Of a stretch of 38,701 bases of DNA, positions 1-4,782 are shown one piece after another. The stretch is from Halorubrum yunnanense (GTDB lineage Archaea; Halobacteriota; Halobacteria; Halobacteriales; Haloferacaceae). How positions within the stretch are numbered: the first letter of the stretch is position 1; each line of letters starts with the position of its first letter. The stretch lies in the NCBI RefSeq assembly GCF_026586675.1, contig NZ_JAODIX010000015.1, forward strand, positions 8,093 through 46,793, read 5' to 3'. The notes beneath the pieces were generated by a model that was not told the origin of the DNA, did no database searches, and was given only the letters and a program-made list of their open reading frames with translations. Made by a program: the position numbers and the translations under genes.

Positions 1-198
1 CCCCCCGAGGCTGGGGAGGTGTGAGGTGCGGTCGGGTGGGACCCAAAGGGGCAGTCGCGAGGACGAAGCCCGCTGCAGCAAGCACCGCAAGGAGCGAGTG
101 TAACGAGCGACTGAGGCGCGCAGCAAAGCGCGCGAGTCGTCGCGACTGGGGCTTTGGAGGTGTTCATCGCCCATCTGCGATCACTCATTTATAAGCGA
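1..198 (+). repeat. Structured dispersed element, copy A (5' end cut by window)
   Basis: Non-coding segment sharing long blocks with 4331-4540: a GAGGCTGGGGAGGTGTGAGG-like block, GGGACCCAAAGGGGCAG, GCAAGGAGCGA, GAGCGACTGA and GGGGCTTTGGAGGTG. It folds as CCAAAG (43-48), GGG, 13-nt arm (52-64), paired with arm 136-148, GGG, CTTTGG (152-157); the 13-bp stem has one mismatch. An inner hairpin pairs GCGCGC 116-121 with 128-133. It ends in a TATA-like ATTTATAAGCGA at 187-198. The 5' part lies outside the window. Whether it is transcribed is not visible; it could be an RNA gene or a non-autonomous mobile repeat. Confidence 0.8.
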
Positions 199-230
199 AT
201 GCCAGAGGCCTTCGAAGTGCTCTCGCCGTT

Positions 231-318
231 CGCGTCGTTCGGCGATCGGTAATCGCGTCGTTCGGCGATCGGTAATCGCGTCGTTCGGCGATCGGTAATC
301 GCGTCGTTCGGCGATCGC
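231..318. repeat. 23-bp tandem repeat, 3.8 copies
   Basis: Units start at 231, 254, 277 and 300, each opening CGCGTCGTTCGGCGATCG; the last is truncated and diverges after 318. The copies are identical, so the array is recent or homogenised. It lies between the structured element and the promoter of the gene at 392. There are no spacers, so it is not CRISPR. Confidence 0.9.
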
Positions 319-391
319 CAGTCCGATCGGGGGCAACGCCCGCCACTGTCACGCACGCTTTACCCGTCGCTCCCGAAACGGGCACAACCCA

Positions 392-1393
392 ATGACACGC
401 GCGAGCGCCGGCGCACGGCTCCACTTCGGCTTCTGTAACCTCAGCCTCTCGCACGAGCGGCTGTACGGCGCCCTCGGTCTCGGCCTCGCGGAGCCGCGGG
501 TCGTCGTCGACGCGGAGCCGGCCGAACGCGTGACGGTCGAGACGGCCGACGGCGACGCCGCGGCCGACCCGGCCACCCGCGACGACGTCCGCGAGTACGC
601 TCGCGTCGCCGCCGACCTGCTCGGCGTCCCCGGCGCCCGCGTCGCCCTCCGCGAGTCGCTCCCGCGCCACGCGGGGCTCGGGAGCGGGACCCAGCTGGCC
701 GCCGCGACCCTCGCCGCGATCGCGACCGCCCACGGGCGGGAAGTCGAACTCCGCGAGCGCGCCCCGGCGCTTGGCCGCGGCGGGCGCTCCGGCGTCGGCG
801 TCGCGACCTTCGAGGCGGGCGGGTTCGTCCTCGACGCGGGCCACCCGACCGCCCGGTTCACGACCGACCGCCCCGCGGACGGCGAGTGGACCGTGCCGCC
901 GGTGGCCGCCCGCCACGCCGTCCCGGACGACTGGCGCTTCCTGCTCGTGCGCCCCGACGCCGACCCCGGCCGGAACGGCGACGCCGAGGACGACGCGATG
1001 CGGACCGCGGTCGAGCGCGCGGAGCCCGGGCTCGCCGACCGGATCGGCGGGATCGTCACGCGGCGGGTGCTCCCCGCGATCGCGACCGGCAACGCCGAGC
1101 GGTTCGGCGCCGCGGTCGCTGAGATTGGCCGGCTCAACGGCGCGTGGTACGCCGACGAACAGGGCGGCGTCTACCGACCGCCCGTCGGTGACGTGGTGGC
1201 GTCGCTGTCGGCGTCCGCGGCCGTCTTCGGCGCCGGGCAGTCGTCGTGGGGGCCGACCGTGTACGGCGTCACCGACAACGACGACGTCGACGCCGCGGCG
1301 GCCGCGGGCGAGCGCGCGCTGGCGGAGGCGGGCGTGGCCGGGTCGGTCGCGGTCGTCCGCGCGGCGGGGGGCGGGGCGCGGGTGACGGAGTAG
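392..1393 (+). CDS. beta-ribofuranosylaminobenzene 5'-phosphate synthase family protein (GHMP superfamily)
   Basis: A 333-residue protein of the beta-RFAP synthase type. That enzyme condenses PRPP with a p-aminobenzoate-type substrate in the first committed step of methanopterin synthesis. The GHMP-like glycine/serine-rich motif LPRHAGLGSGTQLAAATLAA is at about residues 90-109. A second glycine-rich block, GRGGRSGVGVATFEAGG, follows at about 129-145, and the C-terminal GAGQSSWGPTVYG block is typical of the family. Length is normal. The ATG is chosen because a TATA-like GCTTTACCCG at 357-366 lies about 30 bases upstream, fitting a leaderless transcript. Haloarchaea are not methanogens, so the physiological product here (a modified folate or pterin) is an inference. 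Confidence 0.85.
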   Translation: MTRASAGARLHFGFCNLSLSHERLYGALGLGLAEPRVVVDAEPAERVTVETADGDAAADPATRDDVREYARVAADLLGVPGARVALRESLPRHAGLGSGTQLAAATLAAIATAHGREVELRERAPALGRGGRSGVGVATFEAGGFVLDAGHPTARFTTDRPADGEWTVPPVAARHAVPDDWRFLLVRPDADPGRNGDAEDDAMRTAVERAEPGLADRIGGIVTRRVLPAIATGNAERFGAAVAEIGRLNGAWYADEQGGVYRPPVGDVVASLSASAAVFGAGQSSWGPTVYGVTDNDDVDAAAAAGERALAEAGVAGSVAVVRAAGGGARVTE

Positions 1394-1483
1394 CGAATCG
1401 ATCAGTCGCTTCGCGCCTTTCCCGTCGCCAGCGACCCCCGCACGAGCAACAACACTAAGCGGGACGGCGACCCCGTACGGGAC

Positions 1484-2320
1484 ATGACGAGCGTTCCGTT
1501 CGGCGTCGCCCGCCTCGACTCGATCCTCGGCGGCGGCGCGCCGCCGGGCAACGTCGTGCTGCTCGCCGGCGAGTCCGGGGCCGGCGCGCGCGAGTTCCTG
1601 TATACGAGCGCCGCGATGAACGCCCTCGGACACGCCGACGCGGAGCTGTTCGACCTATACTACGGGGAGCTCTCGGCCGACGCCGAGCTCCCCGACGACG
1701 TCCACTACCTCTCTTTCACCGCCGACACGGACGCGCTCACGCGCGAGATGGGGTACACGATGGGCGACGAGATCGTCGACGCCGCGATCGACGAGATCGC
1801 CTTCCGGGACCTCTCGCCGGAGTACTTCCAGCTGAGCCCGATCCCCCGCGACTGGTACGAAGAGGAGACCGCGTCGATCACCGAGCTCGGGGACCGCGGG
1901 GAGTACGAGGACGTGCTCACGGCGTTCGGCGACTACCTCTCGGCGAACGCCGACGGCAGTCTCGTCTGTATCGACTCCGTCACCGACCTCGTCTCGATGG
2001 TCGACGAGGACACCGAGTGGAGCGACGTCGCGATGGTGATGAAGGGGCTCAAGAAGGCCGCCTACGAGTGGGGCGGGCTCATCCTCGTGCTGGTGAACAC
2101 CGACTCGCTCACCGACCGGGAGTTCGGCGCGCTGATGGACGCCGCCGGCGGCACCCTCCAGTTCACCTGGGAGAGCGGCGGCTCCCAGCGCGCCCGGACC
2201 ATGTTCGTCCGCGAGTTCCGCGGCGTCCTCTCGCGGCTGGAGGCGGAGAACATCGTCCGGTTCGAGACCGAGATCCACGAGGGCGGCTTCGACATCAGCG
2301 ACGTGCGGAAGATCCGGTGA
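1484..2320 (+). CDS. RecA-superfamily (KaiC/GvpD-like) protein with degenerate Walker A, haloarchaeal 'HTR-like protein'
   Basis: A 278-residue single-domain RecA-fold protein. The N-terminal FGVARLDSILGGGAPPGNVVLLAGESG layout is that of KaiC/RAD55-type ATPases. The Walker A loop at residues 29-37 reads GESGAGARE, where the family has GxxGxGK[S/T]: the lysine is Ala35 and the Ser/Thr is Arg36, so ordinary ATP hydrolysis is unlikely. A Walker B-like strand SLVCIDSVTDLV is at about 159-170. Similar proteins in halophiles carry the name HTR-like, without a proven function. A TATA-like ACACTAAGCG at 1451-1460 supports the start. It heads a same-strand run with the two zinc proteins downstream, which suggests but does not prove shared function. 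Confidence 0.75.
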   Translation: MTSVPFGVARLDSILGGGAPPGNVVLLAGESGAGAREFLYTSAAMNALGHADAELFDLYYGELSADAELPDDVHYLSFTADTDALTREMGYTMGDEIVDAAIDEIAFRDLSPEYFQLSPIPRDWYEEETASITELGDRGEYEDVLTAFGDYLSANADGSLVCIDSVTDLVSMVDEDTEWSDVAMVMKGLKKAAYEWGGLILVLVNTDSLTDREFGALMDAAGGTLQFTWESGGSQRARTMFVREFRGVLSRLEAENIVRFETEIHEGGFDISDVRKIR

Positions 2321-2378
2321 GGCCCCCGCTGCCAGCGACGGACGACCGCCGAGTATCGATCCAGAGAACGACGCGACA

Positions 2379-2433
2379 GATTACTTAAGTCTCCCCGCTA
2401 AACGGTGCGTAGATGACAGAGGATCCTCGATGA
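2379..2433 (+). promoter_or_regulatory. Promoter with a possible leaderless six-codon upstream ORF
   Basis: TATA-like ATTACTTAAG at 2380-2389 lies about 26-32 bases before an ATG at 2413. That ATG opens a six-codon frame (MTEDPR) whose stop TGA, 2431-2433, overlaps the ATG of the next gene (2430) as ATGA. If transcription starts at the first ATG, the main gene would be reached by termination-reinitiation. Confidence 0.45.
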
Positions 2434-3299
2434 GCGACCTCGATCCGACCGACGGGACGGTCGACGACGCGATCGAGGCCGCCGCCGACGAGGCCGGCGT
2501 CGGTCGCGAGGCGCTGCTGAAGCGCGCGGTCGTCGCGCTCGCGGAGGAGGAGGAGATCGACGTGCCGAACGCCGGGGAGGTGGCGGCGATCGAGTCGCGG
2601 GTGGACGCCCTCGACGCCGAGCTCGACGAGAAGGTCGCGGACCTCCGGGAGCGCTTCGTCGAGCTCTACCGCGACCTGGAGGCGACGGCGCCGGCCGACC
2701 ACGCGCACGCCGAGACGGCGGACCGACTGGACGCGCTCGCGACCGACGTCGACGGGATCGCCGAGCGGCTCGGCGAGCTCGAGGCGGACGCCGCGGCGCG
2801 GTCGACCGTCGACGAGGCGGTCGAGGGGCGCGTCGACGACCTCGACGACCGGCTGGCCGACGTCGAGGAGCGGCTGGGCGACCTGGCGGAGTCGGAGGCG
2901 CGCGCCGACGCGATCGACGCCGAGGACCTCGACGAGCAGCTCGACGACCTCGACGACAAGCTCTCGCGCGTCGCCAGCGCGGTCGTCAGGGTCCGGCGCC
3001 GGCTCGAGGCGGCCGAGCGCGATCGCGCCGACCGCGAGCGGCTCGACGCGCTGTCGGCGACCGCGAACCGAAACGGGATCAGGAAAGCCGCCTGCACCGA
3101 CTGCGGCGAGACCGTCGACGTCGGGCTCCTGACGGCGCCCGAGTGTCCCCACTGCGGCCGGTCTTTCGGCGAACTGGAGCCGAACCCCGGCTTCCTCGGC
3201 ACCGCCCGGCTCGTCGCCGAGGAGCAGCCCGCGCTCGACGGCGACGTCGACGGCGAGACGGGCGGCGTGAGCACCCGGGACCCCGGAGGCGACCGATGA
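2430..3299 (+). CDS. Coiled-coil protein with C-terminal zinc ribbon, function unknown
   Basis: A 289-residue acidic protein. A short N-terminal helical segment (residues 1-50, DEAGVGREALLKRAVVAL) resembles a small DNA-binding or regulatory helix pair but cannot be assigned. Residues about 55-205 are almost all heptad-like, with Leu and Ala alternating with Asp, Glu and Arg (ALDAELDEKVADLRERF; DDLDDRLADVEERLGDL), so a long coiled coil is expected. A CxxC...CxxC zinc ribbon follows: Cys222, Cys225, Cys239 and Cys242, then a FGELEPNPGFLG stretch. It overlaps the next gene by ATGA, so the two are probably co-translated. I do not recognise a named family with confidence. Confidence 0.8.
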   Translation: MSDLDPTDGTVDDAIEAAADEAGVGREALLKRAVVALAEEEEIDVPNAGEVAAIESRVDALDAELDEKVADLRERFVELYRDLEATAPADHAHAETADRLDALATDVDGIAERLGELEADAAARSTVDEAVEGRVDDLDDRLADVEERLGDLAESEARADAIDAEDLDEQLDDLDDKLSRVASAVVRVRRRLEAAERDRADRERLDALSATANRNGIRKAACTDCGETVDVGLLTAPECPHCGRSFGELEPNPGFLGTARLVAEEQPALDGDVDGETGGVSTRDPGGDR

Positions 3300-3907
3300 G
3301 CGACGAGGGAGACGGCCCGCGGGGCGAGCCGGACGCCGACGAGGGGAGCGACGCGTTCGACTCCCTCGACGACCTCGCGACCGAGACCGACGACCCCGAC
3401 GAGGTCGACGACCCCTTCGCCGAACTCGGCGCGGGCGTCGACGCGGAGGGTCCCGACTCCTCTCCCGCAGACTCCGACCCGGCCGACTCCTCTCCCGCAG
3501 ACTCCGACCCGGCCGACTTCGACCCGGCCGATCCCGACGCGCGGCGCGACGACCCCTTCGACGAGCTCGGCTCCGCCGATTCCGAGACCGACCTCGACGA
3601 CGCGTTCGAGCGGATGGACGTCGGCGGCGCGGCCGAGGAGGACGTCTGGGAATCCCTCGAGGCGGACGCCGAGGGCATCGACGGGGCCGGTGCGCTCGGC
3701 GCTGCGACGTCCGCGTCCGGCGACACCGAGCACGTCGTCTCCAAGCGGACCTACTGTCAGCAGTGCCCGCACTTCACCTCGCCGCCCGAGGCCGCCTGCA
3801 CCCACGAGGGGACGAGCATCCTCGAGGCGGTCGGCTTCGACGAGTTCCGGGTGCGGAACTGCCCGATGATCTCCGAGGAGGACCCGACGTTCGACGCCGA
3901 CGAATAA
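3296..3907 (+). CDS. Acidic protein with C-terminal four-cysteine metal-binding domain
   Basis: A 203-residue protein; the ATG overlaps the previous stop by ATGA, so longer upstream frames are not needed. Residues 1-145 are a low-complexity Asp/Ser/Ala/Pro region, including a 30-bp in-frame tandem duplication at 3455-3514 (SPADSDPADS type). The only domain is at the end, residues about 150-203: Cys154 and Cys157 (YCQQCPHF), Cys168 (CTHEG) and Cys189 (NCPMI), a probable zinc-binding fold followed by an acidic tail. Together with the upstream zinc-ribbon coiled-coil protein it looks like a small haloarchaeal module. Function unknown. Confidence 0.8.
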   Translation: MSDEGDGPRGEPDADEGSDAFDSLDDLATETDDPDEVDDPFAELGAGVDAEGPDSSPADSDPADSSPADSDPADFDPADPDARRDDPFDELGSADSETDLDDAFERMDVGGAAEEDVWESLEADAEGIDGAGALGAATSASGDTEHVVSKRTYCQQCPHFTSPPEAACTHEGTSILEAVGFDEFRVRNCPMISEEDPTFDADE

Positions 3908-3992
3908 CCCGCTGAGAGTTACGCTGCCTCCAAACGATCCCGGCGACGGTTTCTGGACAGATTCAAGCGAATCGGGACTAAACGCCGCAAAA

Positions 3993-4187
3993 GTGGGTAT
4001 CGTCGACAGCACGCGACGAGGCGGGATCGAGTTCGGTCCGGGCGCGCTCACCGGGGCGATAGGGGATTCGGTTACTGTCGTCCCCCTCGTCGTCGCGCTG
4101 GCGACGAACCTCGGCGTCGCCTTCCTGCTCGGGATCGTCGCGCACCTCGCGTGGGAGCGGGTCGGCGAGAACGATTACGAGTTATAA
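3993..4187 (+). pseudogene. Internally deleted remnant of a MOT1-type sulfate/molybdate transporter
   Basis: A 64-codon frame from GTG. Residues about 10-36, EFGPGALTGAIGDSVTVVPL, resemble the start of haloarchaeal MOT1-like sulfate/molybdate transporters, whose first motif is E-[LI]-[ST]-G-A-x-G-D. The sequence then passes directly into ATNLGVAFLLGIVAHLAWERV, which reads like a final membrane helix and tail. Family members are about 350 residues with about ten helices, so some 290 codons appear to be missing without a frameshift. It may alternatively be a real one-helix protein. It lies directly before the structured repeat element, which could have taken part in the deletion. Family assignment is from memory of the motif. 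Confidence 0.55.
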
Positions 4188-4203
4188 ATGGGGAACGGTT
4201 GCG

Positions 4204-4500
4204 GTGGCCCGCGCCTCCGAGTGGCCGACAGGCCACGAGGAGCGCGTGCGAGGTCGCCGGCGCTACGCGCCGGCTGCCAGAGGGACCGGAGGTCCCTCGC
4301 TGGACGCGGTGAGCGCTCGAAGAGCGCGAACCGCGAGGTTGGGGAGGTGTGAGGCTGTGGTCGCTGTGCGGTCGGGGCGGGGACCCAAAGGGGCAGCCGC
4401 GAGGACGAACTCCGCCGACGTAAGCACTGCAAGGAGCGAACGGAGTGAGCGACTGAAGCGCGCAACGAGGCGCAGGAGTCCTCGCGGCTGGGGCTTTGGA
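4204..4500 (+). repeat. Structured dispersed element, copy B (fuller copy)
   Basis: About 300 bases of hairpins with no credible gene. The 5' part (4204-4350) is a train of small inverted repeats: GTGGCC/GGCCAC, CCGGCG/CGCCGG, AGGGACC/GGTCCCT and GCGCTC/GAGCGC. From 4340 it aligns with copy A. CCAAAG (4385-4390), GGG and a 13-nt arm (4394-4406) pair with a perfect 13-nt arm (4478-4490), GGG and CTTTGG (4494-4499). The base pair C4397:G4487 is T55:A145 in copy A, a compensatory change. It is followed by the 57-bp repeats. It could be a structured RNA or a transposable repeat. Confidence 0.8.
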
Positions 4501-4677
4501 GGTGGTTAGCGACGATCCGCGGTCGATTATTTATAAGCGAGCGGCTGGGGCTTTGGAGGTGGTTAGCGACGATCCGCAGTCGATTATTTATAAGCGAGCG
4601 GCTGGGGCTTTGGAGGTGGTTAGCGACGATCCGCTGTCGATTATTTATAAGCGAGCGGCTGGGGCTTTGGAGGTGTT
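4484..4677 (+). repeat. 57-bp tandem repeat, three units plus partial, each with a TATA-like box
   Basis: Units begin at 4484, 4541 and 4598; a partial fourth starts at 4655. Each opens with the 3' arm of the element hairpin (GCGGCTGGGGCTTTGG) and closes with TTATTTATAAGCGA. The units differ at one visible base (4520, 4577, 4634: C-G-G, C-A-G, C-T-G). Because 57 is divisible by three, an open frame runs through them; this is a by-product. Confidence 0.92.
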
Positions 4678-4782
4678 GACGATGTCGTTGAGGTCAACTA
4701 CTCGTATACGAACACCATATTCACCTCCGTATCGAGCGCAGTCAGGGAAGCTAAACCGCTCGACATCCTACTCCGAGCAGAT

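Follow-up and report, generated by a model that had tools for sequence, protein, structure and literature searches.

We found that two loci in the window, by which we mean the whole 38,701-nt stretch of Halorubrum yunnanense DNA analysed, belong to a family of folded non-coding elements that extends across salt-loving archaea and is apparently undescribed. The fold is under selection, and its letters change in compensating pairs. Our preferred reading, which we put forward tentatively, is that the family is a BIME-like mosaic element of haloarchaea that is old and bound to the chromosome. Its 124-nt core would work as one folded strand, in all likelihood an RNA with rightward transcription.

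A preceding sequence-only reading of the window had reported two copies of a structured element related by a compensatory base-pair change. The swap is indeed present, the pair T55:A145 of copy A being replaced by C4397:G4487 in copy B, and the internal loop in which GGG was said to face GGG was confirmed (positions 4391-4393 against 4491-4493 in copy B, with copy A alike). The 13-bp stem of copy B, also as described, pairs 4394-4406 with 4478-4490; it is flanked by GGG/GGG and then closed by CAAAG/CTTTG. When folded alone, copies A and B formed one common rod on the + strand (z -4.6 and -3.4), and no shuffled sequence folded equally well. Both copies score highly with R1, our covariance model of the core (E 3e-28 and 3.6e-26), and both are part of its seed. 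The extents assigned earlier, 1-198 and 4331-4540, do contain the two copies, but the elements are larger: copy B extends from ~4182 to 4678, and copy A starts ~130 nt ahead of the window (contig C24, locus L045). The loop, thought to vary more than the arms, is not merely variable, as it encloses a further hairpin that is itself conserved and contains tandem G.A pairs. An ORF over copy B had no Pfam match. The features of both copies are listed in the table.

Table. Features of element copies A and B, in window coordinates.
Feature	Position	Strand	Basis or remark
AT box TTATAAA, candidate TATA box	4182..4188	+	copy B left edge; overlaps upstream ORF stop codon
Left arm: GCGGTGGC-type box, first hairpin (GAGTGGCC..GGCCACGAG), GAGCGCGTGCGAGG	4200..4252	+	alignment of ~40 copies
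Optional hairpin module: GTCGCCGGCGC-TACG-CGCCGGC + GAGGGACC-GGAGG-TCCCTC	4253..4304	+	
Second left-arm hairpin (CGCGGT..ACCGCG)	4305..4335	+	
G-rich linker GGTTGGGGAGGTGTGAGG (TGCGGT-like repeats)	4336..4380	+	
Copy B core	4381..4504	+	R1 match 135.4 bits; covariation
Copy B tail, 57-nt direct units	4484..4678	+	4484-4540, 4541-4597, 4598-4654, partial 4655-4678
Copy A left-arm right end + G-rich linker	1..38	+	remaining left arm before window
Copy A core	39..162	+	R1 match 126.3 bits
Copy A single 57-nt tail unit	142..198	+	AT box 188-194

Read from left to right, the Halorubrum element consists of an AT box ~7-15 nt before GCGGTGGCGCG, two hairpins with optional extra hairpin modules (found in some copies only, at varying position), GGCTGGGGAGGTGTGAGG, a run of TGCGGT-like repeats, the core, and tail units. 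In copy B, the core is built of a basal stem, the GGG/GGG internal loop, the 13-bp stem, and, past an internal loop that is conserved, the tandem-G.A hairpin (4432-4454); it is followed by a tail of 57-nt direct repeats. Each tail unit contains the 3' arm and CTGGGGCTTTGGAGG, and the full units also contain the AT box TTTATAAGCGA. The 57-nt spacing is kept in most copies with more than one unit. Second, third, and fourth units agreed with the first unit of their own locus at 0.74, 0.73, and 0.64, compared with 0.58 across loci; since units within a locus are more alike than units of different loci, the arrays seem to grow locally while their outer units decay. At the other end of the element, AT content in 126 Halorubrum copies was 0.70-0.80 at positions -14 to -9 before GCGGTGGCGCG, and ~0.3-0.4 in most sequence further upstream. 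The AT boxes are a property of this Halorubrum-type mosaic; ahead of the cores of other genera, none are evident.

Several further observations concern the surroundings of the core. In some Halorubrum copies, another AT box precedes the first by ~32 nt (-47 vs -15), as if the left edge carried short repeat units. In the draft genome, left-arm hairpins contain runs of N (L020, L021, L025, L035, L038, L040, L045), which suggests that these structures resist sequencing or assembly. Directly after copy A, at window positions 230-316, there are about four copies of a 23-nt tandem repeat (TCGCGTCGTTCGGCGATCGGTAA). A small ORF ahead of copy B (3956-4190) looks like a remnant; in several relatives (for example, L048, L049, and L067), the parts matching its beginning and end lie ~0.9 kb apart, and the middle of the ORF thus appears to be deleted in the window.

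Overwhelming evidence for the fold comes from covariation, and it bears out the earlier suggestion of a conserved fold both within Halorubrum and class-wide, far above shuffled and slid controls. In an alignment of 53 Halorubrum copies, prepared by sequence alone, 98.7% of cells paired, and 16 of 28 pairs showed double changes, in 163 cells. None of 500 shuffles reached the observed values, and partners slid along the alignment paired in 29-42% of cells. RNAalifold, run without a given structure, predicted 32 pairs, 19 of them with double changes. In a class-wide set of 34 loci, nearly all from outside Halorubrum, double changes were seen in 27 of 28 pairs (338 cells), with 97.8% of cells paired against 34-45% for slid partners; this alignment was fitted to the model and is biased in its favour, yet the effect is much larger than such a bias would produce. 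In both alignments, the cells represent related copies rather than independent events. The GGG/GGG loop was invariant in the 53 Halorubrum copies; class-wide, 45 of 52 matches had it, and several of those that deviated were very weak.

Conservation extends to the non-canonical pairs, the stacked tandem G.A pairs being almost invariant. A G.A followed by an A.G is found at columns 39/98+40/97, 51/86+53/85, 56/82+57/81, and 60/78+61/77. In the inner hairpin, two Watson-Crick pairs alternate with two G.A pairs, and shorter copies have this hairpin without some of the alternating units. The upper stem occurs in two forms, with a G.A plus a bulged A or fully paired. Since paired mutations preserve the shape as the sequence itself changes, something in the cell probably depends on that shape.

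Imperfect pairs were used to determine which strand folds. Equal weight on both DNA strands would give equal numbers of G.T and A.C among such pairs. On the + strand, with the variable basal pair left out, we counted 48 G.T and 5 A.C in Halorubrum, and 26 and 5, respectively, class-wide. The conserved G.A pairs, too, work on the + strand only. These results show that the folded molecule is the + strand, as RNA or single-stranded DNA; a strand-biased mutation process may be an alternative source of the G.T/A.C asymmetry.

The family is dispersed, as the sequence-only reading had proposed, with tens to more than 100 further copies per genome. A BLAST search of the window's genome with copy B gave 175 candidates, and the 43 matches listed were mostly separate full-length copies; each of the 34 further genomes sampled from the genus also gave matches. 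A short exact pattern recovered 122, 88, and 83 copies in three genomes, while the reversed control pattern recovered 0; in one of them (G018), all 88 copies were listed on contig 1. Halorubrum genomes contained 70-220 candidate copies each, the family was present in every one searched, and a chromosome carries roughly 80-140 copies. On a complete Halorubrum chromosome (G026), R1 gave 141 matches at a density of one per 22 kb; they lay on either strand, with no signal of replication strand (66 + vs 75 -) or of regular spacing (gap CV 1.04 vs 0.99 for random positions).

The covariance-model search proposed at the outset found further copies far beyond the genus. A diverged core was detected by R1, at E-values that are rough, in 223 of 292 genomes and 62 of 77 genera of the class. 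Copy numbers in other genera were 93, 67, 92, and 97 in some, and 5-36 in the remaining ones tested. At the strict filter, ~20% of genera had no match, and the element is thus dispensable. In a sample of 197 genomes of the phylum, no R1 match was obtained outside the class, all 25 positive genomes belonging to the window's order or closer. Named records matching the core pattern were nearly all from Halorubrum. Two viral-contig matches and a Pyrinomonadaceae match of the patterns were rejected as chance, the flanking element being absent, and a search of phages gave no match. The core had no match to Rfam families at the gathering score (the highest score was 15 bits, the cut-off being 50), and the literature searched held no description of the family, an absence that is weak given thin coverage of subscription journals.

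Comparison of genomes, one per species, showed that individual positions persist. At the TFS-gene locus, an element is found at the same place in many species and is absent in others. On contig C41 of the window's genome, six of eight assessable copies had a counterpart at the matching site of genome G004, as counted by reading coordinates. The matched cores were 69-86% identical, which does not exceed the identity found between unrelated copies, and in a sample of the window's own genome, the best pair of copies was 92.6% identical, with a median best identity of 85.7%. Taken together, matched sites, low identity of matched cores, and the lack of near-identical pairs imply that the positions are old, that there was no recent burst, and that, within the limits set by the fold, sequences either drift quickly or are exchanged. 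Variants of the TFS-gene locus were also observed, with the core loop inverted between the stem arms (L055), enlarged (L071), or deleted (L075).

A conserved RNA and a structured transposable repeat had both been suggested for the family; the dispersal and the conserved fold stand, and neither alternative is singled out by them. The second, in the form of a non-autonomous mobile element (MITE-, SMR-, or PATE-like), would be a selfish family whose fold is recognised in trans by a transposase or recombinase. We consider it a rather doubtful possibility, albeit the most serious rival. It would account for the 70-220 candidates per Halorubrum genome, for the mosaic build with its optional modules and inverted or deleted loops, and for sites filled in one species and empty in another, which do exist. 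In the proposed empty-site comparison, made between species whose intergenic DNA has diverged, these presence/absence sites showed neither a readable target duplication nor a clean boundary. In other genera, the core often occurs in head-to-head pairs with GACTGAAAG ends facing each other, and by eye some of these pairs have similar outer ends, which again fits mobility; the terminal inverted repeats of a MITE are shared with a transposon, and a target duplication usually accompanies them. Against this reading, near-identical copies are absent, and the fold far exceeds known terminal hairpins in elaboration and conservation. Mobile elements usually gather on large plasmids, yet large Halorubrum plasmids were seen without copies: there was no match in Halorubrum plasmids of PLSDB at E<=1e-5, and at E<=1 there were 23-nt matches only, on three plasmids of 301-607 kb, for which one copy per 22 kb would predict ~60 copies. 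Close pairs, moreover, enclose ordinary genes and no transposase. Among the Halorubrum close pairs (<2.5 kb) listed in three genomes, 12 of 15 are (+,-), with tails inward (L273-L281 of G026, L125); the genes between them include thi4, ffh, cysS, msrA, and hisA, with thi4 so bracketed in two genomes. An autonomous partner gene between close pairs was ruled out, only ordinary genes being found there.

The genomic context of the copies was assessed with a home-made, simple codon-composition gene caller. Of 101 placed copies, 45 had convergent neighbours and 12 had divergent ones, whereas the background of all gaps of at least 100 nt comprised 78 convergent and 94 divergent gaps out of 358. This enrichment in convergent gaps, and the bias towards chromosomes, would be expected of a structure acting between convergent genes as DNA, i.e., a cruciform, a single-strand hairpin, or a G-tract structure bound by a chromosome protein such as gyrase or a nucleoid protein. 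Gyrase is a protein partner of bacterial BIMEs. The G-tracts of the element (GGGTGGG..GGGG..GGGG) and the protein partners reported for bacterial BIMEs (PMC2817692) point the same way. A double-stranded site or cruciform, however, should constrain both strands alike, while the constraint found here is strand-specific, and conservation of the G.A internal loops points to a molecule of one strand; we therefore consider action at the DNA level unlikely.

Left edges commonly lie shortly past a stop codon, as they would if the element acted in cis to form the 3' ends of neighbouring mRNAs or to terminate them. The orientations of upstream and downstream genes around the copies are, however, about equal (66 and 68 of 101), so that the element is not bound to one gene's sense strand. 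Genes on its left are directed towards it as often as genes on its right, contrary to what a sense 3'-UTR role would require, and the left/right symmetry of the counts gives no sign of a regulated downstream gene. The conserved inner loop, furthermore, is not needed for termination, and a terminator role appears very improbable. Chance palindromes, although a GC-rich genome contains many chance inverted repeats, are ruled out by covariation within Halorubrum and class-wide and by the distribution over the class.

We thus return to the BIME-like mosaic element with a single-stranded core. The strand asymmetry, the conserved unpaired loops, and the AT boxes at promoter-like distance make a functional RNA the probable nature of the core. 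The AT boxes within the element would set the start of its transcription in Halorubrum. Its shape would be that of an elongated rod in which a GGG/GGG platform separates a 5-bp basal stem from a stem of 13-20 bp, followed by a conserved internal loop and by a hairpin in which two Watson-Crick pairs alternate with two presumably sheared G.A pairs. Selection acts on the fold, so that letters drift in compensating pairs; copies would swap sequence by recombination, while genomic positions, mainly between convergent genes, persist for long times. The restriction of the AT boxes to the Halorubrum-type mosaic, the dispensability of the element, and the left/right symmetry of its context speak against this reading, and the presence/absence sites would suit a mobile element too. 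We infer from these data the RNA nature of the folded strand, a role in the host, and turnover by recombination. It is conceivable, and to us somewhat less probable than the mosaic-element reading as such, that the family constitutes a new class of large, highly repeated, haloarchaea-specific non-coding RNA, with an invariant G3/G3 platform, a helix alternating Watson-Crick and tandem sheared G.A pairs, and a host function at convergent-gene borders. In such an RNA, the G3/G3 platform might join two molecules or hairpins through a K+-stabilised G-quadruplex.

The maintenance of one fold at roughly 80-140 chromosomal places, and over 62 genera despite turnover of its letters, is a strong sign of function, and this sign falls in an under-annotated part of haloarchaeal genomes. 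The family offers a class-wide RNA or DNA structure to test, for which R1 is a ready search tool, and it provides a natural example of sequences changing in concert at sites that stay fixed.

Among known systems, candidate structured RNAs of the Rfam type share strong covariation and conserved unpaired nucleotides with the haloarchaeal core. The latter differs in having no Rfam match, and cellular RNAs do not usually reach its copy number or occur in such a mosaic context. Integron attC sites have conserved ends, a covarying stem, one folding strand, a variable inner loop, and cassettes. The first three properties are found in the haloarchaeal core as well; its inner loop, in contrast, is conserved, no cassettes are present, and by eye there are no attC core boxes. 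Compared by description, the MITEs, PATEs, and small mobile repeats of Haloquadratum are likewise transposase-free dispersed haloarchaeal repeats; PATEs, in contrast, have near-terminal palindromes related to IS605-type transposons, and SMR-A is about 110 bp long with inverted termini (PMC3119063). A REP/RAYT origin was ruled out. The Y1 (RAYT) transposase PF01797 had no match at E<=0.001 in three high-copy genomes (G262, G288, and G058, with 93, 67, and 97 copies), and there was little association around Y1 genes, a full core lying within one of 14 Y1 transposase loci and a weak 44-nt match at another. The bacterial REP is a palindrome of a few tens of nucleotides with a GT(A/G)G head (PMC2817692). 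The haloarchaeal elements resemble REPs, BIMEs, and RAYT-associated REPINs in being intergenic, folded, mosaic, and present in high copy number, with inverted pairs and strand-polar palindromes, while their unit is distinguished as a 124-nt multi-part fold with conserved GGGACTCAAAGGGG / GGGACTGAAAGGGG ends.
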